Positions 12,301 through 60,373 of a stretch of 64,000 nucleotides of DNA are shown piece by piece. The notes under the pieces are model-generated. The model was not told where the DNA came from. It saw only the letters and a program-made list of their open reading frames with translations, and did no database searches. Positions within the stretch are counted from its first letter, which is position 1. Each line of letters opens with the position of its first letter. The DNA is from a virus: IMG/VR virus record IMGVR_UViG_3300027710_001079, positions 1-64,000 of that record, one strand, 5' to 3'. Both the position numbers and the translations under genes were made by a program.

Positions 12301-15300
12301 ACGTACCGCCTACACCTACTAAGTTAGGTCTATATCCTAAATTTGAACCTAAGATTTATCTTGATGATACGTTTGCAGGAGAAGCAAGGAATGTTATTCA
12401 AGGACATGACGGCAGTATTATGCTGGCATTTGATGACTACCGAGACGACATAATTTTAGAATTTGAAAAAAGAGTCTTCAATAACATTAAGATTAATTAC
12501 AATCCTGAATTGCTAGATATCAATAGTATTCTTCCGGGTGCGTTTAGAACTAACAAATATAACCTTAAAGAAGTTAATGATATTCTTTCCAGAGAATTTT
12601 TAAAGTGGGATGCGTTCTACGGATTTAATTATTCCTTTAACACTACTGCTACTGAAGATAGAAAAACTTGGAACTATAAAACAGGAAAAGATTTAGTTAC
12701 TAAATTGCCACTTCCTGGCAACTGGAGAGGTATCTACAAATATTTCTTTGATACAGATCGTCCACATACTCACCCTTGGGAAATGTTAGGCTTTCCTATT
12801 ATGCCTGAATGGTGGGTCGATGCATATGGACCTGCACCATATACTAGAGGCAACACTATTTTATGGGAAGACATTGAAAAAGGGTTTATTAGAGAACCTA
12901 ACAATTTCACTGTTAATGCAAAATACATTAGAACAGGATTGTCTAGAATATTGCCTGTTGACGACAACGGAAATCTTTTAGACCCGGCATCGGCTAATAT
13001 TGCTACCGGACTAGATTATCTTAGCACAACTGATAATTGGAAATTTGGAGATATTGCTCCAGTTGAAGCTGCTTGGAGAAGAAGTGCCCTATATCCTTTT
13101 GCAGTACAAATTTTAATGGCTTTAGCACAACCAGCTAGCTATGCAGCTATGTTGTTCGACACTAGTAGAATAACAAAAAATCTTGCGGGACAATACGGTT
13201 ACGGTGAAAATAAAGAATTCGTTAGCTTTGATATTCTTAAATTATATCAAGATGTTATTAACGATCAAGACACCCTTGCTGCTGGATACAGTGTGTTTTT
13301 AATTGAAGCAGGCAAACAAAAAAATAGAAAGTATCTATCTGAACTTAAATCTGAATTGAATTTTATTTCTTTTAAACTAAGCCATAAATTAGGCGGATTT
13401 GTTAATAAAGAAAAATTTAAAGTTATTGTAGACAGTGTAAGTCCTAACAGTGTTAGCACTGGCGTTGCATTAGTTAACGAAGATCATGAGATATTTTTAG
13501 ACAAAAGTAGTCCAGTTAAGAGTTTAGGAATCAGTGGAGTTATTGTTCAACGAACAGAAAAGGGTTATTCTATCAGAGGATATGATACAAAGAATCCTTA
13601 TTTCAATTGCCTGATGCCAAATTTCACAGCAACTGATCCTGCAATTACAGTAGGCGGAAAATCAGAAGCATATGTAGATTGGGCAGCTTCTAGTGCAAAT
13701 CCTATGACAGGTCTTGATACTACTTCAGTCAGTACAAATTCTGGTTATAGATATTACAAACAAGGTCAAGTAGTTAGATATTTAGGCGGCTTCTATCGAG
13801 TAAAGATGGGTCACAATTCTGGCTCAACGTTTGACTCTTCTAAATTCCAACCGCTTCCGGCACTGCCAGTTATAGGCGGAGTATCAGTTCGTCGTCCTTC
13901 TAAATTTGGTTCAACAGTTACAGAAATTCCTTACGGTATCGAGTATGAGAACCCTGAAGATATTCATGCAGTTTTATTAGGTTACAGTAAGTGGCTTGAA
14001 AGTCAAGGATTTGTTTTTGACGAGTATAATAAAGACCTTACAGAAATTTTAGATTGGACATTTAGCTCCAAAGAAATGCTATACTGGACTACACAAAAGT
14101 GGTCAGTTGGCAGTGTAATTACTTTAAGTCCTTTTGCAAACGGTGTTAAATTTGAAGATACAACCGCAGTAGTTGACGGATTAACCAATGCATTCTACGA
14201 CTACAGTGTTTTAAAAGCAGACGGTACTGTACTTTCTAATAAGTCTATTTCTACTTCAAGAGACGAAAACGTTTTCACAATTAAAACAGTGAATACCACT
14301 GACGGAATCTTTTTTGCAAGATTAAATCTAGTACAAAAAGAACATACCCTGGTATTGAATAATTCTACTTTGTTCAATGATGTGATCTACGAACCAGAGA
14401 CTGGATATAAGCAACGTAGAATTAAGTTAATAGGCTTTATCACTGGTGGTTGGAACGGCGATATGTTTAGTCCTGGCTTTATCTACGATGAAGCACAGAT
14501 TTCTACATGGGAAAAATTTACAGATTATTCTACAGGTGATGTAGTATTCTATGCGGGCAATTATTATTCTGCAATTTCAAAAGTTTTAGGTGCAGCTGAA
14601 TTTAATTTCAACGAATGGTCTGTACTAGGAGAAAAACCTGTAGCAGAACTTCTTCCTAACTTTGATTATAAAATTGGTCAGTTCGAAGATTTTTATAGTC
14701 TTGATATTGATAATTTTGATGCGACTCAACAAAGTCTTGCACAACACCTTGTTGGTTACAGTCCGAGAAGTTATCTTGATAACATTTTTACTAATGCGAC
14801 AAGCCAGTATAAATTCTATCAAGGCTACATTAAAGAAAAAGGTACTAGAAATACAATTAGTAAATTGGCCAAGGCTAGTATTATTTCTCAAGGCGGCTTC
14901 GTAGATTTCTATGAAGATTGGGCATTCAGGATCGGTAACTACGGTTCATTCCCTACTAACGAAACATTAGAGCTTACTTTAAATGAGTTGCAATTCAAAG
15001 AGAATCCGCAAATTATTAAATTTGTCGAAACTGAACCAATCACATACAGTGAGTTTATAAGCTATCAGACTCCTGAAACCATTGCTATTAAAACAAGCGA
15101 TTACTCTAGCACACCTTTTAAAACAACTAGTACCGCTCTTTCTGACAGTGTAGCTATCTTACCGACTGCTGGATATGCTAGACTTGATGATGTTACGGCT
15201 ACGGCTTTCAACAGAGACAGCCTGCTTGACATTGCTAACAACAGAAGTCTAAAAGATGGAGACACGGTGTGGGTTGGATTCCTACCTAACGGTAACTGGG

Positions 15301-18300
15301 ACATCTATAGATATACTCAGATTTCTACAAGAATTGTAGATGTGGATGTTTATTCGCCAGGGTCTAGTTTATTAGTAACAACTGATTTTAGACACAATTT
15401 ATCTATTGGGGATATTATTAGTATTAGTCAGTTTGACGGACAAGTTGATGGAGTATACACAGTTGATCAAATTATAGAACTTAATCAGTTTGTGGTTTCG
15501 TCTGTTCTTACAACATTAACAACTCCATTTTCTCCAGCAATAGGATTGTTGTTTAAATTTGTCAGTTCAAGACTTGGACAGTTTGACGATTTAGAAAATT
15601 CTATATTACTTGATAAGATCGGTGTCGATGAAAAGATATGGGTAGATGATCAACTAGGTAAGTGGGCAGTGTATCAAAAGACAAACAATTTTGTTTCAAC
15701 AGAATTTAAATCTCCTTATGTTGCTTACACACTAGGACAGAATCAACAGTATGGCTACCAAGTCGCTGGCAATTCTGCAGGAACAAAACTAGTAACTAGC
15801 TCCCCTAATTTTTATTACTCAGCAGACGGCCGCTCTCTAGATTTTGGAAAAGTTTATACCTACAAGATCAATAGTGGACAGGCTCTATTCTCTAGTGCAG
15901 TGTACCCAAACATTTCTATATCAGACACGTACTTCACAGGAACTAATACTTCTTTATTCGGGCAGTCGATTAAATTTGATGATGATAATGATTTGGTCTT
16001 TATTGGCTCGCCTGGTACATCGTACATTCGACAAGTTACTGCAACTAACAAATTTAGTACAGTTAACTTAACTACTTCAACATCAAACTTTATAGAACAA
16101 GGATTTGTTAGAATAGCTAGAATTGATTTTGACAACAACGAAATTTTGTTTAATGCAGCAATTAGCAGCCCTCAGCCTCAGTCTGGAGCAAACTTTGGAC
16201 ATGCTATGCACGTTGGAAATATTTCTCCAACTTCTAAGGTACTATTTGTTTCAAGTCCCGATCATGACGGCATTGGTGCAGTTCATTATTCTGTACTGAA
16301 CATAACTACTAGTTCTGTTAGTGTTGCAGCTAGTGCAGATACAAATGCAAGGATTTCAGTTAGTGGACTAACTGCTGGCAGTAAATTTGGTAATGCAATT
16401 ACTGGTAATTCTTCTGGTACTAAAATTGCAGTGTCGGCACCTGGATGGTCTACGTCGACCGGTGCAGTGTTTGTTTACTCACTTGCAGGTTCTGGAACTT
16501 ACACTAATGTACAGACAATTACTTCTCTAGATAATGCATTTATCGGTATTGCAGGACCCGGAACTGGGTTTGGCAACAGCATAGTAATGAGTGAATCTGG
16601 AGACTACCTGTTTATTTCTGCAACTAAAGCAAGCGATAAAACTACTCGTTCGGGTAAAGTTATTGCAATGAAATTAACTAATGGGCAATATGTAGTAGAT
16701 CAAGTTATTGATAATCCTTATTTAAATAACGGTTATGACTTTGGCAGTACTATGGAATTGTCTCCAGATAACAAGACTTTAGTAGTATCTTCAGCAGGTG
16801 CAAGTCACAAACCTTTTGCTACATTTGACAGTTATACTTCTGCAATTGCTGGCAGAGAAAAATATGTACTAGACCCTAACAGTAATCTAAGAGCATCAAG
16901 AACTACATTTGATTCTGATACAACTAATTTTTATTCTGTAATTAAAAATTCTGGTGCAGTCTTTACCTTTGTAAAAGAAAATGAAAAATATATCTTCGGC
17001 GAAGAACTTTTTAATCAGTTATCAATTGCTGGGCAATTATACGGAAATAGTGTGCATGTACACAATTCCGGTGTTGTAGTAGGTGCACCTGGCTTAGATA
17101 GGCAACAATCTCAAATTGGTGCTTTATATTTTTATACAGCTAAGTCTGATTCACTAAACAGCTGGAAACTTATTAGATCTGAGGAAGACCTTGTTGATCT
17201 AAGTACAATTAAAACAGTTAAAACTATCAACACAAAAGATCAGTCAGTAGTTGATTATTTAGAAATCATAGATCCATTGAAAGGTAAGATATCTGGCTTT
17301 GCTGATCAAGAACTTTCTTATAAGTCATTGTTTGACCCTGCGGTTTATTCTATAGGTGTTAGCGGAGTGGTGACTAACACTAACAACAACTGGTTAGACG
17401 AACACGTTGGAAAATTATGGTGGGATCTGAGCTCAGTCAAATATGTTTGGTATGAGCAAGGTGAATTAGAATTCCGTAGAAATAGTTGGAATACTTTATT
17501 CCCTGGATCTATGATAGATGTATACGAATGGGTAAGAACATCATATCTTCCTAGCCAGTGGAGTGCAATTGCTGATACTAACGAAGGCCTTGCACAAGGC
17601 ATTAGCGGCCAGCCTAAATTTATCGACAATTCAGTTATTTCTGTAAAACAAATTTGGAATCCTATTTCTAACTCGTTTAGCAATGTCTATTATTACTGGG
17701 TTAAAAACAAGATTACTATTCCTGAAGGTGCATCTAGAAGACTAAGTGCATACGATGTTGCAACCCTTATTGCAGATCCCAAAGTAAAAGGTGTTAAGTT
17801 TGCATCTATTATTGCAAACAATGCGTTTATGGTAACTAACATGGGCAGTTCTATCATTGGAACTGACATTAATTTATCAATTGACGTAGATACAACTGGA
17901 AAAGAAATCAATAAACACACTGAATGGTTGTTGCTGCAAGATGGAAATGCATCTAGCGTACCTAATACACTAATGATCAGAAAACTAATAGACAGTCTAT
18001 TAGGAAAAGATACAGCAGGTAACTCAGTACCAGACCCAATGTTGTCTGATAGATTAAAGTACGGAATTGAATTTAGACCAAGACAAAGTATGTTCAAAGA
18101 TAGAATCGGTGCTCTAAGAACATTGGTTGAATACACTAACAGCGTATTGAAAACTGCTAACATTGTCGACAGTGTAAACTTTGCCAAGTTCAATGCTAAA
18201 GATGAGATTCCTAACCAAGTATTAGGAACTTATGATGTATTAGTTGAAGACTTGATCGAAAGAGATTTTGCAGTCAGTACTAGAAATCTTAAGAGAGCAC

Positions 18301-21300
18301 AGTTAACTTGCCAGGTAAGAAATGGTAAAATTATTTCTGTTACAATTATTGATCCGGGATTCGGGTACGGCACATTGGAAAAAGTTTTAGTTAACTCTAA
18401 CCAAGAAGCAGTTAACTATGTTGGTCCAACTGTTACTATTGACGGCAATGGTAGTGATGCAAAAATTGTAACTGAAGTTAACGTTGTTGGCGAAATTGTT
18501 AAAGTCACAGTGGTAAATCCTGGAAAGAATTATACAGCATCTCCAGCATTAGCAGTTAGACCTTTCACAGTAATAGTAAGAACAGACGACACAGTAAATG
18601 GTCGCTGGAGTCGCTACGAATGGGAATACGATCTTAAAGTATTTTTAAGAAAGTACACTCAGTCCTATGATACTGCTAACTTCTGGAAATATATTGATTG
18701 GGTTGACACAACTTACAATCCTGCACAAGATATACTTGCTACAATAGATGCACCGTACCAGCTAGCCAGTGTATCTAGTATCCCTGCTGGCAATTATGTT
18801 AAAGTAAGAAACGGCGGTGATGGCAGATATATTATTTTAAGAAAGCGTTTATCTACTGCCGGTGTTGGAACTTACAATAGCTCATTTGATTTGATTTATC
18901 AAGAAAATGGTACTATTAAGTTAGACGAGTCTATCTGGAACTATAAAGCATCAGTATACGGATGGGATCAAGTATCCGGATGGGATCAAACTTCTTGGGA
19001 TCAAAATCCTGCTAAAGAAACTGAAAACATTATATACGGCTTACTTGAAGATGTATTTGTAGGGCCGTTAAAAGTTTACTATAACAAACTTTTCTTTAAG
19101 CTAATCAAATATGCACTAAGCGAGCAAAAATTCTTAGACTGGGCATTTAAAACATCGTTTATTAACGTGTATAATCATGCCGGAAGTCTAGATCAACGAC
19201 CTGTTTATAAGTTAAACAACGAATCTTATTACCAAGACTACATTAACGAAACTAAACCATACCATACTAAGATTAGGAATTTTACTAACAACTACACTGC
19301 AACAGACGTTACAAGTGCAGTCATTACTGACTTTGACCTGCCATCAGTTTACAGTCCTAGTCAAGGCAGATTTATTCCTGTTACATTTGGTAGAGCAGAA
19401 TTGAACACGTATCCTTGGAAATCTTGGTTACAGAGTTATTCTTATTCAGTTGATGCTATAGATGTATATGACGGCGGCTCTGGGTATGAATTACAACCAC
19501 TGGTTGAAATTTCTCCTCAGCCAGGCGATACTACTGGCACTGGTGCTAAGGCAGTGGCATATATTGCACTTGGAAAAGTAAGTCAAATTGTTGTTACTGA
19601 TGCAGGTTCTGGGTACACTGCAACTCCTATTATTAAACTAATTGGTGGCGGCCCGACAACTCTTACTCCAGCAAGAGTATCTGTAAGAATTACTAACGGT
19701 GCTGTTAGATCAAACTCTATTACGATGAAATTTGATAGAGTATCTGGATATAATGAAATTACTACATCTACTGCATTTGATTCTTACACTGCAACTGGTG
19801 CTAGCCGAGAGTTTGATTTAACATGGGCACCTAGTCCTGATAAGAATAACATCACAGTTAAGGTAGACGGTATCCGTGTTCTTTCTGGAGATTACACTGT
19901 TGAGAAATATTCTGAAAAATACAATGGATATTCTAAACAGTACGGCAAAATAGTACTTGCAGATATTCCTAAAAAATTATCAAAGATCACGGTAGAGTAT
20001 AAAAAGGATCATTCTTTATACCATGCAGTTGATAGAATCAGAGATTACTATGCACCGGTATCTGGTATGCCGGGTAATACTGCAACTATGTTAATGAATG
20101 GATTAGAATATCCCGGAGTAACAATTGACACCCTACCATTTGAAGTTTCAAAAGGTTGGGACACTACTTTGTTTGGTGACAGTAATTGGGATGATTTTAT
20201 TCCAGAAGTAGGTGCGTATGAAACCAAAGGACCAAGAGTAACTGCTACTGTGGCGGCAACTACTAGCAATAGTGCTGGTTCAGTATTATACTTTACATTA
20301 GCAACTAATAAAGATATTACAGGTGTTCGAGTGGGATCTACGGTTACTATTGCAACAGTAATCTATACAGTTACTTCGTCTACCATTGATACCGCTAACA
20401 TGACTAGATGGGTATTACAATTAGGAGCACCGGTCGGAGTAACTCCTGGTGCCTCTCTAGCATTTGTAAATCCAAATCCATTAGTCTACACTTTGCCTTT
20501 CGTTCCAACATTAGGCCAAGGATACAATGCATATATTAAGTATTCAGGTACTGACAATTTTGTAAGAATTGATACTACTGCTACAGCATTTGTTGGCAAT
20601 GGATACGTTAGTACAATTACAGTTCCTGCAATTTATAATTCTAATGATAGAGTATTGTTTAGGTCTACTTCAAGTGACGGCTCTTTACCAGTTGTTGATT
20701 TAGATTTAGATACCTATATTAATCCTAACGGTGCTACTAGCCCCGGATGGTATTATGACAACATCAATGGTATGATGGTACCTACTAAGTCTGATGACTT
20801 AGAAGATATCAACATTGATGGTGATAAGTTAATCAGTGCAGCTAACAGTTACGGTCCTGAAGAAAATCTTCCAGGTAGGGTTTCTGATAGTTTAGGAATC
20901 AACGTCTACACTTATCCTACAGCAGGTGCAGCGTTAATGATTAACAAAAAGTATTTTAAAGACGCATTCACTAGTAGATATCCAATCGGGTTTACACCTC
21001 CTAGTAATGAATCCGTTGAAGTAATGTTAAACAACAGATTGTTGTCATATGGTGTGGATTACATTATAGATTATCAAACTAATGAAGTTATTTTCTTAGA
21101 AGATCCTTATGCCGGAATTCGAGGTCCTTATTTTAATCCTACAGATGTCTTACCAAGACGCCAGGGCACGGTAATTGAAAGTAATGCAGGAGATGATACC
21201 TTTACCGGTCCATACCCTCTTGGATTTTCCTGGAACATGTTTGGAACATTGTACAATGAAGTGTATGTTGGAACAAACGGCTATTTAACTTTTGGTGCCG

Positions 21301-23720
21301 GCGATAGCCAGTGGACTCCGCTAGTGCTAGGGCAATTAATAGCACCTGCAATTTATATTGAATATTGTGACTTGTGGCAAGATTACGGTATTAATCCTAG
21401 TACAGGGCTACGAAATACTCCGCTTTCAACTGGTGAAACTCCAGGCCTATTCTTAAGCGGCGGCGAAGTAGGCGACTTTGTATATTGGAGACTGCGTTTT
21501 CAAGGCTCTCATTATAATCAAAGAACTTCGACTACGACAGTTCCGGCGTATCAATTTGAAGTTACGTTATATAGTGACGGAACAAATCAGTACATCGAAA
21601 TGATTTATGAAAATACATGGAGAGGTGCAAACTTTAACGGCGACCAAGGATTTATTACTGGTGTTGCATTAGGTCGTTCTGGTAGCACACCGGGTACTGG
21701 TATTCTAGTAGATGATGCTAGTATTCAAAATAATACTAGCCATGTATTTTATAGTACCAGTAACGGCGGTAATTGGCAATATGCCGGTCGAGGAAGCTTC
21801 GATCCATTTAAGAATCAAAATCCAGATCCGGAACTATTATCTATTACTACTATGAGCGTTGGTGGCAAGAACTTGCTAGAAAAAGCATCAGTTCCTATTA
21901 CATATGCTAGTGGGCAGAAAGTATTTGATTTTGCATCTAGTTTTGCAGATATTAAGAGCAGTTATGTAACAGTTAACGGAGTTAAACGTACTGATTATAC
22001 ATTATCTGGATTAATTAAAGGAACTTCGGGCAGAGTAAAATTAACGTTTGCTACTAACTTGGCAATTGGAGATACCTTACAAGTTTGGTTCTTTGCTAGT
22101 GATCACAAAGCATTTAGTGAAGTTAAGGAGCAGATTATTGCAGTTACTTCGGGCACCACAGTGTTCACATTAACTTCACCTCCGGGAAATATTCAACCGT
22201 TCCACAGTCAATTGATTGTTGAGCGTGATGGTCTACGTTTGAGCCCACCAGACACTGTATATTATTCGGCAGCTAACGGAGTTAGATCATTCTCGTTAGA
22301 TCAGCATATTGATTACCCGCAAGGGCTACCTGATAGAGCTAAATTAGAAATTTATGTTAACGGTGTAAGAAGAGATTTTGACACCGCAGTTAGATTAAAT
22401 CAAGATGAAAATCTAGTAGAATTTAACACTCAAGAGTTAACGGATACTGATGTAGTTGCTATTACATTGTTAAGAGATCATGATTACTATGTTACTGGAT
22501 CAACATTAACATTAACTGATCGAGTTAACGTTGCTAGCTCTAGTACAATTAAAGTTACAACTTTTAACAACCATGATAACAGCTTGTTTAGAAGAGAACG
22601 CTTTAACGGTAACTATGCAGGCATCTTTAAGTTAAGCAGAACTGTAATCAATAGTAATTATGTTTGGGTTGAAGTTAACGGACGTCCAATTACTAGAGAA
22701 ACTGAATTTAAAATTGGATCTGATAGCAGAACAGTTATCTTGAATGAGCAATACAAATTAAAATCCACTGATACAGTAGTGATTATGAGTGTAGTTGATC
22801 AAACAAGTGAAGCACTAGTTGGTTATAGGATTTTCCGTGACAATCTTGGTAGGACACATTACAAGAGAATTAGCCAAGAAAATTCTACCCAACTTGCAGC
22901 AGATCTATTGCCAACTGATACTTCTATTACAGTAGAAGATTCGAGCGTATTGACATTGCCAAATCACAGTAACAATCGTCCTGGCGTTATTTTAATTGAC
23001 GGAGAACGAATTGAATTTTATAAAGTAGAAGGTAATAAACTCAGCTGGTTACGCAGAGGAACATTAGGCACAGGCATTAAATCTTTACACAAAGAAAGTT
23101 CTATAGTGTTAGATCAAGGTCCTGAGCAAAATATTCCGATTGTTGAATATAAGAAACAAGATAAGTTTACTATTAATAGCACAACTAACACAGTACTAAC
23201 ATTAACAAATATTGTGTTTGATGGCGGAGTTATTAATTCTTATAATCATGTTGACGTTGTTTATCAAGGCAGAGTGTTGCGTAAGCCACTATCTGATACT
23301 TACACTTCGTTATTCAACAACGGTGTAAAAGTTGTTAAAAATACAACAGCAACTTACAAGACAACCGATGTTAGTGTTGCATATGATTCAGGAGAAACTA
23401 ACTCTTATAACACTGCAAGTACAGTATTGTTATCAGCTGAATACAGCATTACCACAGCAACAAATACTATTAATTTGAACTTTACTCCTAGAGTGGGGTC
23501 AGAACTAAAAGTAATTCAAACAGTGTCTCAAGAGTCTGGAATTGAATATTCTAACATCCATTCTAGAAATGTTGAGCAAGTTAAGTTCTTGTTGGAGAGG
23601 CCATCTTTCCTACCAGATAAATATTACTATGGTCAGAATACTGCAACAGATCAATACCTAATCCTTGAATTTGGGGATACATTAGACAGTGAAACAGGAG
23701 ATCCTTTAATAGGTTCATAA
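9399..23720 (+). CDS. gp7: Giant baseplate/tail protein in the gp7 position (4773 aa)
   Basis: One uninterrupted frame of 14.3 kb. T4 gp7 is 1032 residues and also follows gp6, so the gp7 name rests mainly on order and on an N-terminus ([20 protein letters not shown]) that I associate with large structural proteins of marine T4-like phages. Visible domains: a cupredoxin-like beta domain without metal ligands at about 180-270; FG-GAP/integrin-type propeller blades at about 2110-2600 ([71 protein letters not shown]); G-x-GY repeats near 2960-3050 and 3340-3420; and a nidogen-like stretch with [11 protein letters not shown] at about 3930-4130. A baseplate arm or adhesin-bearing wedge is likely. 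Coupled to gp6 by a one-base overlap and followed two bases later by the collagen-like gene. The virion role is firm; equivalence to gp7 is moderate. Confidence 0.8.
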
Positions 23721-53589: not shown

Positions 53590-54225
53590 TTATTCGTAAG
53601 TTACTGTATCAGAGTCGCCCAATCGCCATTTGGGGTTTGTTTCCACAACCCATTTTTTAGTAGCAACTTTGAAATCTGGAAAAAGCATTTCTTTGGGGTT
53701 ACTGGCGGCATCAAAAAATCTACAACGGTTATTGGGCTGTGCTGCATATTGTCCGTTGGCTAACTGTATAAAGTTAAAGCTCTTGTGATCCTCCGGCCAT
53801 TCACTGTAGCCGGTATCTATTGTGTTAAGATCTGGACTAGCATTGTCCACTGTAAACATATAGTCGCCCTTGTGTAGTTGACGATCTTTGGCATAAAACT
53901 CGCAGGATAGATTGCGTAGAAATGCCTTTTGTATCACAGCAATGTCATAACTGAAACAGTCCCAGATCTGTAGTGTGTCAAGTGGTAAAAACTTATCTGG
54001 CTCTAGGTCAGTGTTTCTGCTCACGTAGGCGTGTAGGGGTAGTTTATCATACAGAGCACCGTATCTGGGCAAATAACTTTCAATACGAAATGCTTGACTA
54101 CGTAAGCTCTTTATTGATACCCATATACAAGGTTCGTATTCGCCGTGTCCAGATTTAAAATCATATAAAAATTCTCGACGTACGAAACAATGTACCGGCG
54201 GCAAGTTAGCAACTAAGAAACTCAT
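53590..54225 (-). CDS. Unknown protein, 211 aa
   Basis: Beta-rich protein with many aromatic residues: VHCFVRREFLYDFKSGHGEY, CIWVSIKSLRSQAFRIESYL, and SEWPEDHKSFNFIQLANGQY. It has a compact globular look, no disordered regions, no transmembrane segment and no catalytic motif I can name. It lies between the metallopeptidase-like gene and the sigma-70 promoter. It lacks the capsid-targeting N-terminus of its upstream neighbours. Possibly a conserved marine phage family. Confidence 0.7.
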   Translation of the reverse strand: MSFLVANLPPVHCFVRREFLYDFKSGHGEYEPCIWVSIKSLRSQAFRIESYLPRYGALYDKLPLHAYVSRNTDLEPDKFLPLDTLQIWDCFSYDIAVIQKAFLRNLSCEFYAKDRQLHKGDYMFTVDNASPDLNTIDTGYSEWPEDHKSFNFIQLANGQYAAQPNNRCRFFDAASNPKEMLFPDFKVATKKWVVETNPKWRLGDSDTVTYE

Positions 54226-54226
54226 G

Positions 54227-54643
54227 TTATTCTTCTAGATTAACAGCGTCGGTATTAAAAAATTCTGGATTTGCTTTGTTAAACTTACGCATCACAATAC
54301 CGGCTAACTCGTGTGCTTGATTTTCCTCAGGACTACCTGTAGCACCTGCACCAGGCTGTAGACCAGTTTCTTCGTTTTGTTTGTAATGCACCATTTCGTG
54401 TGCCAGTGTTCTTAGAATGTCTAATGGATGCCTATCTTCGATTGCAATATTGATTATTTTAGTTTCGCTATTGAAACTTCCAAAACTAGGCTGATCGTCT
54501 ACACTGCCAATGCGTAAATGCATTTTGATCTTTGGAACAGTTTTTAATTTAAGTTCGTTGACTGCAAAGGGAAGGAACTCCTGAAGTATTTTCATAAAAT
54601 CAGGTTTTGAATTTACATTCTCTAATAAGTCTATGATTTTCAT
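54227..54643 (-). CDS. SprT/M48-like zinc metallopeptidase with capsid-targeting start
   Basis: 138 residues. RTLAHEMVHYKQNEETG contains HExxH (His82, Glu83, His86), and NQAHELAG (His111, Glu112) could give the third ligand. Preceding strands (KIINIAIEDRHPLDIL) fit a minimal gluzincin fold. The N-terminus MKIIDLLENV resembles T4 capsid-targeting peptides, so it could be packaged and injected, or trimmed by the prohead protease. It overlaps the next gene upstream by one base. Active-site residues are complete; the target is unknown. Confidence 0.78.
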   Translation of the reverse strand: MKIIDLLENVNSKPDFMKILQEFLPFAVNELKLKTVPKIKMHLRIGSVDDQPSFGSFNSETKIINIAIEDRHPLDILRTLAHEMVHYKQNEETGLQPGAGATGSPEENQAHELAGIVMRKFNKANPEFFNTDAVNLEE

Positions 54644-55545
54644 TACTTGATAATTCTACGATCCAGTGCTGCCCATAGACGAGATTCGTAAGCAGGCTCT
54701 TTGTTTTTATGCTTAGTGTCGCCTTGCTTTTGGGCTTTCTTTTTATCTTTGTGAGCACCAGCACCGCTTTGCACAGCATTCTTGGCCACAAAGTTTCGAG
54801 GTTTAACTGTGTGTTTCACAGCACGTACACCTTTCTTATTTTCTTCAACTGGCTTTTCTTTTAATTTACTGCGAGCCTGCATCTTAGACATTTTGTAAGT
54901 TGATTGGAATTCTTCGTCACTCATTGTGCGTAGATCCATTAGGATCTCTTTAACTCCGCCCTCTTTGATACTTTCTTTTTTGTGGCTCTTATAACCCTTG
55001 TTTTTCATGGACCATGCTAGTGCATATGGATTATCAATATCATCATGCTTCTTCATAGCCTTAACAGTCTTTTCCCATCCTGGCGGTGCAACTTCTGCTA
55101 CTGCACTTTCTTTTGGCACACAGTTAGGAACTTGTTTTCCGCCCTTTTTCTTCATGCCAATTTGCTTATAGTCTTTCCAACATGTTTCGTCTAATTCGCC
55201 CTCCGCTACACCTTGCCCTAACACTTGACGAACTAATAGTTCAGGAGCAAAATCCATGTCACCGGCTAGTTCTCTTGCTGCCGACAGCACTGCTTGTCTA
55301 GTTGGCTGTAATCTTTTTTCTTCTACATCTCTACGAAGTTTCATTATGAGAGATTGTGCATCATATCCCAAATCTCTAACGCCTTCCGCAGTGTTAGTTT
55401 CTTGGAACAGCTTTCCGCTATCAAGAGCATTGTCTGTAGGCTTTTGTCGTCTAATCATCTTGCCAGCCTTGCTAGGTGCAGTTGCTACAGAGCTTGTGCT
55501 CATTCCGCCTACGCTTGCAGATTCTAAAATTTGTATGATTCTCAT
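54643..55545 (-). CDS. Basic protein with capsid-targeting start, putative internal head protein
   Basis: 300 residues. It begins MRIIQILESA, where ILE then Ser fits a gp21-type cleavage site. The chain is Lys/Ala/Gln-rich and low in complexity. A motif ETCWKDYKQIGMKKKGGK then NCVPKES (about residues 119-147) also occurs at the end of the 1270-residue protein. It ends in ESRLWAALDRRIIK, with a long disordered Lys-rich stretch before it. This fits an internal protein condensed with DNA. No enzyme motif is seen. Confidence 0.7.
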   Translation of the reverse strand: MRIIQILESASVGGMSTSSVATAPSKAGKMIRRQKPTDNALDSGKLFQETNTAEGVRDLGYDAQSLIMKLRRDVEEKRLQPTRQAVLSAARELAGDMDFAPELLVRQVLGQGVAEGELDETCWKDYKQIGMKKKGGKQVPNCVPKESAVAEVAPPGWEKTVKAMKKHDDIDNPYALAWSMKNKGYKSHKKESIKEGGVKEILMDLRTMSDEEFQSTYKMSKMQARSKLKEKPVEENKKGVRAVKHTVKPRNFVAKNAVQSGAGAHKDKKKAQKQGDTKHKNKEPAYESRLWAALDRRIIK

Positions 55546-55913
55546 TTTGTTAATTTATTCCTATCAGGAACGGGCCCGTATATGTTTGTAGAGTCTAACT
55601 CGTCACTATTCATGTCACCGTGATTCATATCTTCATAACTCGCACCGGCAGCTTTGTAGGCTGCTTTTAGCATGTCTGCTTCTACTTGTGTGTAAGGATG
55701 TGCAGTCTTCTTTTTACCTGCCCAACTTTTTGAATCAATGTCTAACTTATTCTTTCCATCGCTCATTGCCGCTGCCATACCAACTCTAAAACTGACGTAT
55801 CCGCTATCTGCTTTTTCAGAATCAGAATAACGATGCAGTCCCCGTGTGGATTGCTGCTGACGCTTAGTCAGCTTGCCGTTAGTTCTTTCAGCGATGAATT
55901 CTTTTGCTCTCAT
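55542..55913 (-). CDS. Small protein with T4 internal-protein-like capsid-targeting start
   Basis: 123 residues. The start MRAKEFIAERTNGKL shares EFIAE with the T4 internal proteins (MKTYQEFIAEA), which are cut by the prohead protease after that Glu. The rest is polar: TKRQQQSTRGLHRYSDSEKA, MAAAMSDGKNKLDIDSKSWA, then KKTAHPYTQVEADMLKAAYK. This middle block looks like a module shared by marine phage proteins. A packaged internal protein is the best reading. It overlaps the next gene by four bases. Confidence 0.72.
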   Translation of the reverse strand: MRAKEFIAERTNGKLTKRQQQSTRGLHRYSDSEKADSGYVSFRVGMAAAMSDGKNKLDIDSKSWAGKKKTAHPYTQVEADMLKAAYKAAGASYEDMNHGDMNSDELDSTNIYGPVPDRNKLTK

Positions 55914-55921
55914 AGTGTTAT

Positions 55922-56188
55922 TTATTTTTTACCAAACCAAAGTTCGAACCAAGCCGGCGTACCCGGTTTAATTCCCTGTTCACGCATTATGCGAGCATTT
56001 TCGTTACCATGTTGACTATGTAGCGGTATATCTCTTTTTGTCAAGTATTCACGCATACGCTGTTCTGCACCTAACTCTCCTAGCCAGTTACTAGATTGTA
56101 GTGCATGTACAGGATCATCTGGGCTTAGAGCACAGTCTGGATCAGTTGAAGCATCTACAGGGAATCCTGCTATTCGATATTGTTTCAT
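55922..56188 (-). CDS. Small protein, unknown, 88 aa
   Basis: Residues of note: YRIAGFPVDASTDPDCALSP, LGELGAEQRMREYLTKRDIP, then PGTPAWFELWFGKK. Mostly helical in the middle and without a capsid-targeting start, unlike the genes on either side. The start overlaps the stop of the 1270-residue gene by four bases, so it is made together with it. Function unknown. Confidence 0.65.
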   Translation of the reverse strand: MKQYRIAGFPVDASTDPDCALSPDDPVHALQSSNWLGELGAEQRMREYLTKRDIPLHSQHGNENARIMREQGIKPGTPAWFELWFGKK

Positions 56189-59100
56189 TTATTGCTTTCG
56201 AACAGTTTTAAAATTGCCAGCGTCATTTCGAGTTCGTATGCTTCGCCAATTGGCACACACTTATCTTTACCATTCTTAGTACCTGCGTACTTATAACCTT
56301 TCCAACAGGCTTTTCCGTCTGCACCTTTTTTCTTATCAGTCTCGCCTACTAATTTATGTGTAGGTTGTTCTTTAGGTGCTGTACCTTTTAACTGGCCTTG
56401 TGATCCTAGTTTGTTTTTATTACTACCTGCAAATTTGTTTGCAGACATCATTGCTTCATTCTTCTTAGCTATGTTTCTGCCTTTTAAATGTTCTTCACGA
56501 CGTTTGTCACCAGCAGCACGTAGTTTGGCCGTAGCACCATCTTTAGGATTAGTTAATCTACTGGCAACCTGTGCCATTGCGGAACTATTATCTTCCCCTA
56601 CCTTCTTTTCATCATTAGCAAACTGTTTCTTAGTTGCCTTAACAATGCCGCTAAAACGTTTGTTGCCTTTGGCATAGTCGCCTGCTTTATCGGCAGCACT
56701 GGCTTGGGCACCTGCGGCTGTTTTATATTGTGCTAATTTTTCGTTGGATAGCTCTGACACAATCTGCCTTAAGTTGTTAACAGCAACGCTTTCGCTAATC
56801 TTTGGATCCCTGCCCATTTCTTTTTGGCTCAACAAATAATCCCAAACACTAACTAGCATCATTTCTGCTTTGGCAATCTTTTCTTGTCCCCATTCTGGTA
56901 GGTTGTCATTACTCTTAATAGTTTTTAATAAGCCGTCGACTGCACGAGCCATTGTGCGTAGATTACTCTGTGCCATTCCTGCTTCGTCGTCGTACTCGCC
57001 GTCGAAGTTTTCGTTCTTAGCCTTTGCTTTGCCTGCTTTCATATTTGCCATCCAATGTGCTAATTGTCCTTTACGTCCGCCTTGTTTAGCTACTTTACGT
57101 AGATTACTGACTGACGATTTTGTGGGAACTCCGTGACGCTTACTGTCGCCCTTGTCTTGTGGGTTGCGACCGTCTGCAAAGTTTTCATTTAACATCAGTG
57201 CGTTAAACAATCTCATTTCACCTAGTGCAGGTTGTTCAACTGGCTGTGGTGCAGGTTGAACAGCAGGCTTCTTAACTGCTGGTTTTAATTGAGGCGTACT
57301 CATACCAGTCTTTGACACATCCATTAGATGTTTGATCCATTGTGAAGGTAGTGGCTTTGCACCATCTTGCCCGCCATTAAATGCATCATTCCACATTTGA
57401 AATGCCTGTTGTTCATCTCCAGTTTTTAACACATTGCGTAGCTTAGTAAAGCTCATGCCAGTGCCTCTAGGAGTAACTTCTAACTGAACTTTAACATGCT
57501 CATATCCGGGAAACTTATTAACTGCTTTCATCAAAGCCTGTGCAATAGGCATCTTGGCCTGATCTTCACCTACCATAATAACAACATTATCGTAACGTGG
57601 AGGTTTACCCGGCAACGGATTAATCAGCTCGTGCTTGATCTTCTGCATCAAAGATCCGCCTTCTTGAGTTACAGCACCAATGTTGGCTGCATACTCTGGA
57701 TACAGTTGTTTCCAAGTTTTAATTTTATCTGCAACAGGAATAGGATCATCTACACCTACAGCATTACCCATAAACAAGTATGGATCTCCACTGACTTCTT
57801 TCGCCTTATTAATTGTAAGACCGAATAATTGTTGATGACCTTTGTGTCCTACAAAACTGCCAATGGCTACTACCGCAGTTTTATTTCCTGTACGTGGTTG
57901 TTCTGTACGTGCTGCTGCTTTAGCTGCCTGCTTGTCTGCAATAATTTTCTTTTGCTGTGAGCTAGTAACTTTGATAGGTCCTAGACGACTATTGATAACA
58001 ATGCCTTCGTAGTCTTGTCCTAACAAGTCCTTGCCTAATATATTAGGATCTTCTTGAATTGCTTTTTCTAATGCTAATGCCACAGGTGCTAATATTTCTT
58101 TAGCTTCTCGCTTTTGTGCAAGTTTACCGCTGGCTAACATTGCTTTAATTTGTTCAATGTTTTCAACTGGGGGAACTATTGCAGTAACGTCTAGTCCTTC
58201 TTTTTGTGTTAATGAATTATCAATAAACATAACACTGCCTTGCTTGCCTAATCCTGTTAGTTGTTTAACAACAGATTGTGCATCGCCTAAGTCTTCTCCA
58301 GATGTTGCATCAACAACACGGAAGGGAACTAGTGCCAATTGAATTCCTTGTGGTAACTTGTCGTAATGTATACCTACAAATTTTAATTTGCCTTCTGGAG
58401 TTTCTGTTGCAAATGGTAAGAACAGCACTTCGCAAGTGACCTGCTTATTGACTAGAAATTCTGGACCTAATTTGCTATCAACTAATTTGATAGCGTTCAT
58501 CATTTCCATGAACAGCTTGTCAAAGTTTTGAGCCCGACCTAGAATCTCAGGATCAGTTGTTCCCTTTTCTTGATGGTACTTAACAAAGCTAGGTGCATAC
58601 CTTGGGGGAGTATTACTAGTAGCCATAAATGGCTTGCCGTCTGCATCCTTACCAAAGCGTCCACCGAAACCATCTACTTTAACGTTTAATGGAATGTTTT
58701 GTAGTTTAAAATTGCCATTACCGTCATGAATTTCGTCAATTAGATCTAATAAGTCAACTGGCTTTAGATCACGCAGGTGCGGCATATTCTTACGGAACTG
58801 TGCCTTAACTTCTTCTGCTTCCTGCAAACTTTCGGCAGTTACTTTATAAGCTGCTTTATATTGTTGCTTCATTTGTTCAAGGTCGCCTGGTGCTTGAACA
58901 CCTAATTTATTAATCATAAGATCTAACGCAGCAGATTTTTCTGCACTATCACGTTCTGGATCTCCTTTGTAAAGGCCCTGAGCACCTTTGCCAAATATTT
59001 TATCAACAAATGCTGACAACACTGACTGCTTTTCTTCTGGAGTAACTAGAGTGTTCATTGCATCTAGTAAACCGGTAAAGCTCCAATACTTACTTTCTAA

Positions 59101-59997
59101 CTGTGCTGCCTGTTTAGGATTCAATCTAGAACCAAAGATAGATCCAAAAATCTTTCCAATATCCTGTTCGTAGCCTGTTGCAGGTAATGCCTGCATAACC
59201 GGCATGCCGTTGCTGACTATAGGCTGACCATCTGCTCCTAATACTGGTTCGTATTTGGCACGTAGACCACCACCTTCTTTGCTAGATACTGCAAAGCTGA
59301 CCATGTTATCAGTTGTAGGCACATCTTGTATTTCTTTTGCTTTGCCCCGGCCTACTGATTTGCGTAGTAAGAAATCTTTTCTACTTAATGATGCTAGACT
59401 TTGAATTAAGAACTTGTGGAATACACCCTTAACTCCTGCGTTCAGATCATCCCAGCTACTGCTGTGACTAAATTTACTCCACGGAGTTGGCTCGTCCTTT
59501 TCAAATGCTACAAACTCTAAGTCAATTTGTACTTTAATAGGAGGATCTTGTAGTTCCCATAGACTAGAGAACTGCTCGTTACCACGTTGGAAACCTAAGA
59601 ACTTAGCATTGCCTACCATCTTACCTTGACTGGTAGATAACCATTGTTCTAGTTCTTGTTCGTTTTCTTTATTGACTTGTGTGTCAATGTCGCCAACTTT
59701 AGGCTTCTTCTCCACAAATTGTTGATCGGTAATACCCTTGGTATTGAAGAAGTGTAGACTACTTCCGCTTAGAAATTGTTTACTTTGTAGTAGTTGCGGA
59801 TTCCACAAAGGCTTTTTGTATTTTTTTGCAAAAGAATTGTTGATATTAAGCAACAAGGTATCTAAAATTGGTACAATATAGGAACGATTATGTACTTTAA
59901 GATCAATTTGTTGTGCTTCGTGTCCGCCAGGTAGCGATAAATTGCCGCCTTCTGAAACAACTTTCTTTCTATTACTAAACAGCTCATTTAAATTCAT
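56185..59997 (-). CDS. Giant three-domain nucleotidyltransferase protein, putatively packaged
   Basis: 1270 residues. Start MNLNELFSNRKKVVSEGG resembles a capsid-targeting peptide (VSE then Gly). Domain 1, about 60-220: Pol-beta-type nucleotidyltransferase (SGSSLHFFN, VGDIDTQV with Asp103 and Asp105, VQIDLEF with Asp159). Domain 2, about 400-690: ligase-type covalent nucleotidyltransferase: motif I NVKVDGFGGR (Lys440), III TCEVLF (Glu523), IV YEGIVI (Glu664), V GPIKVTS (Lys676). Domain 3, about 705-870: HxGH nucleotidylyltransferase, IGSFVGHKGHQQLF (718-721) and GMSFTKLR (848-854). The last 350 residues are basic modules with GRKGQLAHWMANMKAGKAK, LPEWGQEKIAKAEM and a CWKGYKYAG ... CVP motif. 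All catalytic residues I looked for are present. Nucleic-acid repair or NAD-type chemistry are possible; which is unknown. Confidence 0.8.
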   Translation of the reverse strand: MNLNELFSNRKKVVSEGGNLSLPGGHEAQQIDLKVHNRSYIVPILDTLLLNINNSFAKKYKKPLWNPQLLQSKQFLSGSSLHFFNTKGITDQQFVEKKPKVGDIDTQVNKENEQELEQWLSTSQGKMVGNAKFLGFQRGNEQFSSLWELQDPPIKVQIDLEFVAFEKDEPTPWSKFSHSSSWDDLNAGVKGVFHKFLIQSLASLSRKDFLLRKSVGRGKAKEIQDVPTTDNMVSFAVSSKEGGGLRAKYEPVLGADGQPIVSNGMPVMQALPATGYEQDIGKIFGSIFGSRLNPKQAAQLESKYWSFTGLLDAMNTLVTPEEKQSVLSAFVDKIFGKGAQGLYKGDPERDSAEKSAALDLMINKLGVQAPGDLEQMKQQYKAAYKVTAESLQEAEEVKAQFRKNMPHLRDLKPVDLLDLIDEIHDGNGNFKLQNIPLNVKVDGFGGRFGKDADGKPFMATSNTPPRYAPSFVKYHQEKGTTDPEILGRAQNFDKLFMEMMNAIKLVDSKLGPEFLVNKQVTCEVLFLPFATETPEGKLKFVGIHYDKLPQGIQLALVPFRVVDATSGEDLGDAQSVVKQLTGLGKQGSVMFIDNSLTQKEGLDVTAIVPPVENIEQIKAMLASGKLAQKREAKEILAPVALALEKAIQEDPNILGKDLLGQDYEGIVINSRLGPIKVTSSQQKKIIADKQAAKAAARTEQPRTGNKTAVVAIGSFVGHKGHQQLFGLTINKAKEVSGDPYLFMGNAVGVDDPIPVADKIKTWKQLYPEYAANIGAVTQEGGSLMQKIKHELINPLPGKPPRYDNVVIMVGEDQAKMPIAQALMKAVNKFPGYEHVKVQLEVTPRGTGMSFTKLRNVLKTGDEQQAFQMWNDAFNGGQDGAKPLPSQWIKHLMDVSKTGMSTPQLKPAVKKPAVQPAPQPVEQPALGEMRLFNALMLNENFADGRNPQDKGDSKRHGVPTKSSVSNLRKVAKQGGRKGQLAHWMANMKAGKAKAKNENFDGEYDDEAGMAQSNLRTMARAVDGLLKTIKSNDNLPEWGQEKIAKAEMMLVSVWDYLLSQKEMGRDPKISESVAVNNLRQIVSELSNEKLAQYKTAAGAQASAADKAGDYAKGNKRFSGIVKATKKQFANDEKKVGEDNSSAMAQVASRLTNPKDGATAKLRAAGDKRREEHLKGRNIAKKNEAMMSANKFAGSNKNKLGSQGQLKGTAPKEQPTHKLVGETDKKKGADGKACWKGYKYAGTKNGKDKCVPIGEAYELEMTLAILKLFESNK

Positions 59998-59998
59998 T

Positions 59999-60373
59999 TT
60001 ATTTTCCTAACTGATACATGCCTTTGAGGATGTCGCCGTTGTAGTGTTCTGATAATCGAGTGCATAAAGATTCTCTAAACTCTTTGGAAAATAATTTTTT
60101 AGGATCTTCTTTAAGATCAAATCTATGATAAAATTTCATGCAGCCTTTATTGGCCAACGGCATCCAAACTTCCGGAGTATGCTCGGCAGTGGGTTTGTTT
60201 CCGATTTCTTCCGCAATCGGGAAGAAGACCTTTTTATGCAAATTGTCGTCATTTATGATATATTCTAATATATCTTCTAACATCTGTGTTTCTTGAAGCT
60301 TGTCGTTTTCTTCATTTTTTGACAGCTTGTCGTTTTTGATGTTTAATCGTCCAAAGAATTCATTTAATAGCAT
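59999..60373 (-). CDS. Small protein with capsid-targeting-like start, unknown
   Basis: 124 residues, beginning MLLNEFFGRLNIKNDKLSKN, a hydrophobic start like its downstream neighbours, though no clear cleavage Glu follows. The rest is polar: EDILEYIINDDNLHKKVFFP, then MKFYHRFDLKEDPKKLFSKE. It ends one base before the giant nucleotidyltransferase gene and may be co-packaged with it. A late-type motif lies in the leader. Confidence 0.66.
   Translation of the reverse strand: MLLNEFFGRLNIKNDKLSKNEENDKLQETQMLEDILEYIINDDNLHKKVFFPIAEEIGNKPTAEHTPEVWMPLANKGCMKFYHRFDLKEDPKKLFSKEFRESLCTRLSEHYNGDILKGMYQLGK

Follow-up and report, generated by a model that had tools for sequence, protein, structure and literature searches.

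A three-domain nucleotidyl-transfer precursor, predicted to be packaged and processed in the head, in aquatic T4-superfamily phages

The 64,000-nucleotide stretch of viral DNA analyzed here (the window; positions 1 to 64,000 of IMG/VR record IMGVR_UViG_3300027710_001079) contains on its minus strand an ATG-initiated open reading frame, at 56185-59997, that encodes 1270 aa. AlphaFold models and Foldseek searches identified three domains in the product: NT, a nucleotidyltransferase of the Pol-beta type; LIG, which resembles ATP-dependent ligases; and HX, an HxGH nucleotidylyltransferase (Table 1). The residues that a preliminary description had proposed as catalytic (D103, D105 and D159; K440, E523, E664 and K676; H718-x-G720-H721 and SFTKLR 849-854) all lie at the positions it gave. 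Its claim that a single chain combines three different nucleotidyl-transfer domains also held: the active sites are invariant in relatives (55 for NT, 49 for LIG and 48 for HX), a conservation far beyond chance, and domain-by-domain structure prediction agrees, with NT matching Pol beta and LIG-HX matching ligases and HxGH enzymes. These fold matches, together with the succession of secondary-structure elements, suggest that the catalytic residues cluster.

Table 1 Features of the three-domain gene and its neighbors in the window.
Feature	Position	Strand	Basis
N-terminal leader, residues 1-16 (MNLNELFSNRKKVVSE), capsid-targeting-like, predicted site VSE16/GGN	59950..59997	-	
NT, Pol-beta-superfamily nucleotidyltransferase, residues 17-393	58819..59949	-	alignment, model, Foldseek
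Second predicted prohead-protease site LQE393/A394, NT/LIG linker	58816..58827	-	
LIG, ligase-like covalent nucleotidyltransferase, residues 397-692	57922..58809	-	alignment, Foldseek
HX, HxGH nucleotidylyltransferase, residues 705-900	57298..57885	-	alignment, Foldseek, HMM
Variable C-terminal tail, residues 901-1270	56188..57297	-	shared phage modules
Upstream 124-aa gene, CTS-like start MLLNEFFGRL	59999..60373	-	
123-aa gene, CTS-like start MRAKEFIAE	55542..55913	-	by inspection
300-aa gene, CTS-like start MRIIQILE/S, CWKDYK...C module as in main protein	54643..55545	-	
138-aa HExxH metallopeptidase-like gene, CTS-like start MKIIDLLE/N	54227..54643	-	

Alignment of NT with its 55 relatives from other phages revealed invariant GS 78-79, D103, D105 and D159, and the GGN with which the mature domain would begin is invariant or nearly so. 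The NT model (pLDDT 94.3, pTM 0.90) places these active-site residues at a helix start and on strands 87-93 and 139-147 (model numbering). Its best fold match in the PDB was DNA polymerase beta (prob 0.97, E 8e-3), followed by pol mu, TUT1 and MenT4; because whole-chain TM-scores were low, the relation to Pol beta is distant. NT has the GS motif, the DxD on a strand, the third acidic residue and the fold match of the DNA polymerase beta superfamily. By sequence, no match to NT was found in the PDB, or in Pfam across the 55 members, and neither NT nor LIG had a convincing named homolog in Pfam, NCBIfam or the PDB. Two candidate identities were set aside for NT: RlaP, whose PF10127 profile found nothing in the genome at E 10 although the controls did match, and kinship with the CCA-adding enzyme of Vibrio phage Va1, for which hhalign gave no match to this single-sequence target.

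LIG contains the motifs K440xDG, RFG 447-449, E523, E664G and K676, with K440, D442, G443, E523, E664, G665 and K676 invariant across the 49 relatives. It shows motif I (KxDG), the acidic residue of motif III, motif IV (EG), the lysine of motif V and the adenylation-domain fold of covalent nucleotidyltransferases. The best fold matches to this part of the LIG-HX model (pLDDT 88.9) include an archaeal RNA ligase, a fungal tRNA ligase and Rnl2-type enzymes: the archaeal ATP-dependent RNA ligase 5d1o was recovered from the PDB (prob 1.00, E 1e-3) and a viral Rnl2-type RNA ligase (REL/Rnl2) from BFVD (E 7e-6), and DNA ligases in the PDB reached prob up to 0.98. Pfam RNA_ligase matched 1 of 48 members (E 0.055), and no Pfam RNA ligase family gave a convincing match. 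Membership of the T4 Rnl2 family was not supported by sequence, as T4 RnlB gave no hhalign match, a weak test with a single-sequence target.

HX has GHKGH at 717-721 and SFTKLR at 849-854, with G717, H718, G720, H721 and R854 invariant across 48 relatives; the HxGH, a downstream S/T-x-x-R motif and a Rossmann-like fold are those of HxGH nucleotidylyltransferases. FAD synthetase, PPAT and NadD were its PDB fold matches (prob 1.00), and FAD_syn matched 46 of 48 members (best E 2e-6). The family HMM matched the cyanophage cytidyltransferase PHM2_163 (E 8e-15) and Melnitz gp18 (E 1.5e-17); the Melnitz protein has a leader-like start (MKKFSEIIE/A) and a CW..C module as in the studied protein, and P-HM2 HX is leaderless and unfused. 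By sequence, HX is a member of the cyanophage 'cytitidyltransferases'; no described family matches either NT or LIG.

These matches raise a cofactor or nucleotide metabolism role, in which HX makes a NAD-, FAD- or CDP-type product and NT and LIG act on the same molecule, for example against NAD-depleting defenses. Phage NadR/NadM salvage is known (PMC9503650), and some cyanophage relatives of HX carry an NMNAT or NadR-like annotation. We nevertheless consider this role improbable, given that HX conserves few residues beyond its nucleotide-transfer motifs, that a NadV-like or kinase gene was not linked in the cassettes inspected, and that no NadV, Nudix or kinase partner was seen fused in the studied chain. 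Moreover, all characterized members of the KxDG ligase superfamily act, to our knowledge, on nucleic acid ends. Of the two functions initially suggested, end repair of nucleic acid fits better than the making of an NAD-type cofactor.

A search for the same architecture in other phages recovered 76 complete distinct ORFs with the NT-LIG-HX fusion, which is common to dozens of aquatic T4-superfamily phages; elsewhere the same three domains are separate adjoining genes. The preliminary description knew of no protein with this set, and our literature search likewise found no published NT-ligase-HxGH phage protein; the fusion is nonetheless recurrent and its HX family has been described. Xanthomonas phage X1 and Stenotrophomonas phage Mendera carry unfused NT, LIG and HxGH genes with the order kept. 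Because of this shared order, and because DUF6267 adjoins or is fused to an HxGH domain in cyanophages, we regard NT-LIG-HxGH as a functional unit. Campylobacter phages encode NT without LIG or HX; in CP220/IBB_35 its leader ends in ILE/GGN, and the gene goes unnamed in the main texts, as far as available, of the CP220/IBB_35 Campylobacter phage papers. A first scan of bacterial genome contigs returned no homologs; a second returned a single relative, whose contig, part of an Anaerolineae MAG, also bears gp21/22/23-like genes and is therefore phage sequence. Alignments and models support the three domains and their invariant active sites, and sequence comparison supports the fusion, the operon linkage, the leader and the cleavage-type sites.

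Two of the neighboring products recur joined to NT. A protein like that of the 124-aa gene is fused N-terminal to NT in three relatives (L027, L067 and L068; ..KLMEGGN at residue 125), and the HExxH metallopeptidase-like protein is fused in front of NT in two others (L025, L072). The tail differs among relatives, four of which (L004-L007) have an extra insert of ~330 residues that is LysM-like and lysozyme-like by eye; in the studied protein it contains further [LIV]xE[AGSN] motifs at 936, 1067, 1250 and 1265 and an CWKGYKYAGTKNGKDKCVP module at 1231. The same phage encodes 38 tRNA genes, a DUF2828/DUF7788 vWA protein, a calcineurin-like phosphoesterase and a small P-loop kinase.

The start of the chain had been proposed to be a capsid-targeting peptide, and its MNLNELF indeed resembles the T4 Alt leader MELITELFDE. 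Leaders in relatives are variable, ~10-20 residues long, with first residues that vary around M-x-L-x-E-L-F and an [L/I/V]xE end directly before the invariant GGN. Among 77 distinct GGN leaders or starts, 76 were true leaders; P1 was Glu in 75 of these, and P3 was L in 47, I in 21, V in 7 (as in the V-S-E studied here) and F in 1. In the NT/LIG linker, [LIVMF]xE[AGS] occurred in 70 of 86 distinct linkers, against 11.1 expected by shuffling, and this type of motif was found 0 times in 1143 residues of LIG/HX linker. Split genes each have a leader of their own, including NT (..FLNE/GGN) and LIG (MGFEKYLQE/AE..) in L130 and HX (MLLSELFE/AS) in L064; the leader of the separate L130 LIG gene ends at the position of the fusion's linker site, and the L130 NT and LIG genes adjoin head genes. 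A gp21-type prohead protease (PF03420) is present in the records of six relatives, including one whose NT is 95% identical (G014). In these relatives gp23 contains LLE/G and LAE/S sequences, and a small gene adjoining the portal gene begins MLLNEFIYF. Neither PF03420 nor a gp23 match was found in the studied contig, because this 192,832 b fragment is incomplete. A crude leader regex across all ORFs of the contig gave 2 matches against 1.3 expected, and a CTS scan of this kind is uninformative.

Almost certainly, this chain is a precursor, a point that the preliminary description missed in speaking of a packaged multi-enzyme: the sites at E16/G17 and E393/A394 predict NT (41.8 kDa) and LIG-HX (~60 kDa, beginning AEEVK at A394) as separate mature products. 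We infer packaging, injection and cleavage from these patterns, and consider head packaging and protease processing of the three-enzyme protein very probable. One may instead suppose an ordinary long cytoplasmic multi-enzyme whose leader and linker motifs have no packaging role, as leaderless, unfused versions exist (X1, Va1 and Mendera; P-HM2 HX). The leader and site statistics, the leaders on individual split genes and the head-gene neighborhood of L130 make this quite improbable, as does the identical start point of the leaderless X1, Va1 and Mendera genes, exactly at MGGN; the phages with leaderless genes evidently use the enzyme set without packaging.

T4 Alt, suggested earlier as a counterpart, and IPI-III are CTS-targeted, gp21-processed and injected, and the propeptides of T4 internal proteins are 10-19 residues long (PMC9026906). 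The studied protein shares with them a short leader of the same style with a Glu-ended site, and its T4-superfamily relatives encode a gp21-type protease and gp23; it differs in its cargo, three nucleotidyl-transfer domains as opposed to an ADP-ribosyltransferase or restriction inhibitor, in an internal site that would split the precursor into separate enzymes, and in being known from sequence alone. The system may therefore be a variant of T4 Alt/internal-protein delivery with a new cargo. This route would also suit injected host-modifying enzymes, with NT (perhaps HX) nucleotidylating host proteins to switch off defense or redirect transcription. MenT4 is among the NT fold matches, and polyvalent proteins and toxin-antitoxin systems are known to include Pol-beta nucleotidyltransferases that modify proteins (PMC5512222). 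Such a function would account neither for the HxGH domain nor for a linked ligase-type domain bearing the complete KxDG/EG/K set, and we deem it unlikely.

Our preferred explanation, which we advance tentatively and at somewhat less than an even chance, is a packaged, processed enzyme kit for RNA (tRNA) end repair. The leader would dock the precursor onto the prohead core, where a T4-type prohead protease would cut after Glu16, so that the Pol-beta-type enzyme begins with Gly-Gly-Asn, and after Glu393, parting NT from the ligase-HxGH enzyme. Both would enter the cell with the phage DNA and act at once on host-made damage to nucleic acid ends, most likely of RNA (tRNA), ahead of phage gene expression. 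The Pol-beta domain would put back nucleotides lost at the break, and activation and sealing of the ends would fall to the lysine-adenylating ligase; the HxGH domain, whose role is least clear, may add or take off a nucleotidyl group within that pathway. A more specific version, possible though on the unlikely side, is an undescribed virion-delivered kit in which a protease-activated precursor yields a new Pol-beta enzyme (from GGN) and a ligase-HxGH enzyme that rebuild tRNAs cut by anticodon nucleases and shortened, before expression begins.

We lean toward RNA because of the RNA-ligase-type LIG matches, the 38 tRNA genes, the vWA, phosphoesterase and P-loop kinase genes, and the precedent of RlaP, for which restoration of nucleotides by Pol-beta nucleotidyltransferases with RNA ligases is an established proposal (PMC7824862). 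That system likewise ties a Pol-beta nucleotidyltransferase genetically to a ligase-type enzyme (ATP-grasp-type) in large tRNA-rich phages, and differs in that NT has no PF10127 match, LIG has no convincing Pfam RNA ligase match, and the enzymes studied here are joined to an HxGH domain and predicted to be packaged. Several observations count against RNA repair. The fold matches of LIG to DNA ligases are nearly as good as those to RNA ligases, and the sequence of NT is not that of RlaP. Between the NT and LIG genes of X1, Mendera and L130 there is a nuclease-fold-like gene, with PD-(D/E)XK-like motifs (by eye), which phrog_12709 joins to LIG; it could indicate a DNA substrate. HxGH enzymes, moreover, mostly act on small molecules. 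The occurrence of NT alone in Campylobacter phages, the leaderless sets and the lack of a protease or gp23 match in the studied contig also count against the kit. A packaged and processed protein might instead have DNA ends of the phage or the host as its substrate, with NT filling or tailing and LIG sealing them, and so protect or circularize the injected genome, as the nearest NT fold matches, DNA polymerases beta and mu, would allow. We consider this fairly unlikely, since the top matches of LIG include RNA ligases, no DNA-binding helix-hairpin-helix or lyase domain was detected in NT, and the HxGH domain would be left unexplained.

If the end-repair reading is correct, RNA or DNA end repair is carried in by phages and not merely encoded. 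In T4, repair of PrrC-cut tRNA relies on enzymes synthesized once infection has begun; a kit already loaded would outpace a defense that quickly halts translation. RloC excises the wobble base, a lesion beyond plain healing and sealing, and a nucleotide-restoring enzyme beside a ligase would answer how phages handle such lesions. The cleavage-site pattern may also make it possible to recognize packaged, injected proteins by sequence alone. Polyvalent proteins are similarly large, multidomain and injected, some with Pol-beta nucleotidyltransferases and a role in conflict; in the available part of their description (PMC5512222), these nucleotidyltransferases are minimal and mostly occur with ArdC-N in Firmicute elements, and no NT-ligase-HxGH set or gp21-type LxE inter-domain site is described. 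The cyanophage 'cytitidyltransferase' (phrog_3041, phrog_395) is homologous to HX and differs in having no NT domain with it. Homology of its partner DUF6267 (PF19782, T4-GC 71, phrog_455) to LIG was not detectable by sequence; the ligase-like motifs KWDG..EGYVA..KLVDR, recognized by eye, nevertheless suggest a ligase-like activity for this widespread cyanophage family.

The main gene, on the minus strand, encodes 1270 amino acids that comprise a Pol-beta-type nucleotidyltransferase (NT, residues 17-393), an ATP-dependent ligase-like domain (LIG, 397-692) and an HxGH nucleotidylyltransferase (HX, 705-900). The preliminary description had placed three nucleotidyl-transfer active sites in this one chain; every residue it listed is present at the number given, the proposed catalytic residues are all invariant in alignments of 55 NT, 49 LIG and 48 HX sequences, and the fold models match each class, which bears the proposal out. 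Confidence in the NT model is very high (pLDDT 94.3); its top PDB neighbours, DNA polymerases beta and mu, TUT1 and the MenT4 toxin, are matches of modest significance (best E 8e-3). In the LIG-HX model (pLDDT 88.9) the relative placement of the two domains is uncertain because pTM is 0.59; the LIG part matches an archaeal RNA ligase and DNA ligases, and the HX part FAD synthetase, PPAT and NadD. Among viral models, LIG-HX matched a standalone LIG of 300 aa (27% identity, TM 0.80), Rnl2-type RNA ligases and, across both domains, cyanophage cytidyltransferase-like proteins. No curated family spans the protein, the sole match being a sub-threshold FAD synthetase around the HxGH motif, and the matching PHROG families have no assigned function.

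Searches of annotated phages with tblastn recovered NT only, plus part of LIG in Xanthomonas phage X1; the NT relatives are hypothetical proteins of Vibrio, Campylobacter, Stenotrophomonas and Xanthomonas phages. Viral contigs scanned with the NT alignment yielded 170 relative-encoding stretches, of which 79 loci were retained, and a LIG-based scan gave 80 loci. Across all loci pooled, the NT-LIG-HX order occurs in 76 complete distinct ORFs and in 10 truncated at contig ends; the preliminary description had proposed looking for this architecture in other marine phages. Split arrangements also occur (Table). X1 and Stenotrophomonas phage Mendera encode NT, LIG and HxGH as separate genes in unchanged order, with one additional gene between NT and LIG, and Vibrio phage Va1 has a separate NT with a ligase-like plus HxGH protein 1.3 kb downstream. 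Genuine homology links the LIG of X1 to that of the window (hhalign 99.3%). The CTP_transf-like HxGH genes of X1 and Mendera gave no alignment with HX, the divergence being too great; the L064 HX is intermediate between them.

Several loci carry further elements. A 1602-aa version (L004, also L005, L006 and L007) has an inserted tail segment, extra cargo that reads by eye as LysM plus T4-lysozyme-like. In L025 and L072 a metallopeptidase-like protein (DUF6782/Peptidase_M78) is fused N-terminal to NT, and the junction carries a cleavage-type site. Unannotated genes adjoining the ligase-like gene, including those of X1, Mendera and L130, show a D..SxK pattern and appear PD-(D/E)XK nuclease-like by eye; in phrog_12709 the Mendera version is combined with LIG.

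The NT-LIG-HX chain is very probably a packaged, processed precursor. NT N-termini vary in length and sequence, and all end in [L/I/V]xE before an invariant or near-invariant GGN. In a first leader set P1 was Glu and P3 was L, I or V in 53/53; in a larger set P1 was Glu in 75/76 and P3 was L (47), I (21), V (7) or F (1). Leaderless NT genes of X1, Va1 and Mendera begin MGGN and would thus yield an identical mature N-terminus, and in N-terminal fusions (L025, L027, L067, L068, L072) SE or ME still directly precedes GGN. The NT/LIG linker contains [LIVMF]xE[AGS] in 70 of 86 distinct linkers vs 11.1 expected from shuffling, the remainder having mostly LxE with D, E, T or Q as the next residue; a cleavage-type motif was sought in the LIG/HX linker and none was found. 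Matches to [LIV]xE[AGSN] in the main protein are confined to 14, 391, 936, 1067, 1250 and 1265, none of them inside the three domains. Split genes such as the LIG of L130 and L080 and the HX of L064 have leaders of their own, terminating at the same place (Table).

Positions of the main gene, its split versions and accompanying genes (L handles, loci with their own coordinates; G000, the whole record of the phage; CTS, capsid-targeting sequence; slash, cleavage-type position)
Feature	Stretch	Position	Detail
NT-LIG-HX gene	window	56185-59997	CWK(G/D)YK..C, residue 1231
CTS-style start	window	54227-54643	
CTS-style start	window	54643-55545	CWK(G/D)YK..C, residue 122
CTS-style start	window	55542-55913	
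CTS-style start	window	59999-60373	
CTS-like start	G000	168105-168389	MRAHEFINE
CTS-like start	G000	168386-168931	MRIQELLEAE
CTS-like start	G000	175099-176745	MRAREFLKES
NT + LIG-HX	L036		
NT-LIG + HX	L064		HX leader MLLSELFE/ASTEV
NT + LIG	L076		
NT + LIG	L080		LIG leader MMFNIDSLFLE/SE
NT + LIG	L130		LIG leader MGFEKYLQE/AEIAASKRKG
NT by itself	L050		
NT by itself	L058		
NT by itself	Campylobacter phages		
1602-aa version	L004	8001-12809	
Metallopeptidase-like fusion	L025	7593-10850	
Metallopeptidase-like fusion	L072	7593-11858	
Gene beside ligase-like gene	L009	8948-9952	
Gene beside ligase-like gene	L012	8728-9672	
Gene beside ligase-like gene	L130	9039-10355	
Gene beside ligase-like gene	L214	1281-2366	
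Gene beside ligase-like gene	L215	1288-2778	
DUF6267	L214	2350-3606	
DUF6267	L215	2778-3998	
tRNA array	G000	137.8-153.4 kb	L098
Outside tRNA array	G000	114.1 kb	L096
DUF2828/DUF7788 vWA protein	G000	135999-137237	L211:100-1338
4773-aa ORF	window	9399-23720	tail region
211-aa protein	window	53590-54225	phrog_3704

T4 internal proteins carry N-terminal, core-targeting propeptides of 10-19 residues that gp21 removes (PMC9026906), and proteases of T4 and giant phages cleave after Glu (PMC5694885); T4 Alt begins MELITELFDE. A gp21-type protease was found in 6 of 14 relatives' records and gp23 matches above cut-off in 7 of 14, with LLE/G and LAE/S present in the gp23 N-termini. A small gene adjoining the portal gene in relatives starts MLLNEFIYF or MILREFIYF, resembling the NT leaders in style, and L130 has its NT and LIG genes close to gp23-, gp22- and gp21-like genes. 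The window's source, an incomplete IMG/VR virus record of 192,832 bases, has T4-type baseplate genes and rIIA, and no head genes were detected on it. The delivery route would be of a known kind, as for T4 Alt and IP. Window neighbours also start in CTS style, so the region resembles an internal-protein gene cluster. The CWK(G/D)YK..C module shared by two neighbouring window genes recurs in Melnitz and P-HM2 proteins adjoining HxGH genes. Judging by their starts, three G000 genes far from the cluster are possible additional packaged proteins.

The partnership of Pol-beta, lysine-adenylating ligase-type and HxGH enzymes is constant across fusion, fission and strong divergence, pointing to a single pathway. 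Because nucleic acid ends are what the ligase superfamily works on, end repair is favoured, and RNA end repair is our tentative prediction. The RNA side is preferred because RNA ligases rank among the best LIG matches and because the phage has 38 tRNA genes, a DUF2828/DUF7788 vWA protein, a calcineurin-like phosphoesterase and a small kinase. Nearly all the tRNA genes form one array beside the vWA gene; the 64-kb window has none. The vWA protein is possibly TROVE-like, DUF2828 being presumably linked to ROT/TROVE proteins. ROT/TROVE proteins have been described as RNA-repair platforms (PMC7824862), and RlaP Pol-beta enzymes have been proposed to restore nucleotides ahead of RNA ligation, e.g. 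post-RloC (PMC7824862; PMC2610378). NT was ruled out as an RlaP by sequence, so NT-based repair would be a parallel solution.

Injected proteins that are large and multidomain already have a known example in the polyvalent proteins (PMC5512222), and in the papers searched no protein of NT-LIG-HX type was found described. What is new is the NT family, the LIG family, their joining to HX and the evidence for a cleavable head-targeted precursor. The L064 HX is matched by 403 records; T4-like cyanophages have annotated members of the HX family, paired or fused there with DUF6267. The DUF6267 motifs KWDG, EGYVA and KLVDR appear ligase-like by eye, and DUF6267 may be an unrecognised ligase-like family. 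In cyanophage/Methylophilales phage loci DUF6267 (PF19782) has KWDG, EG(Y/F)VA and KLVDR, and phrog_455 takes in a DUF6267-cytidyltransferase domain fusion. Elsewhere in the window, the 211-aa protein matches phrog_3704 (labelled ferredoxin) with an E of 1e-85.
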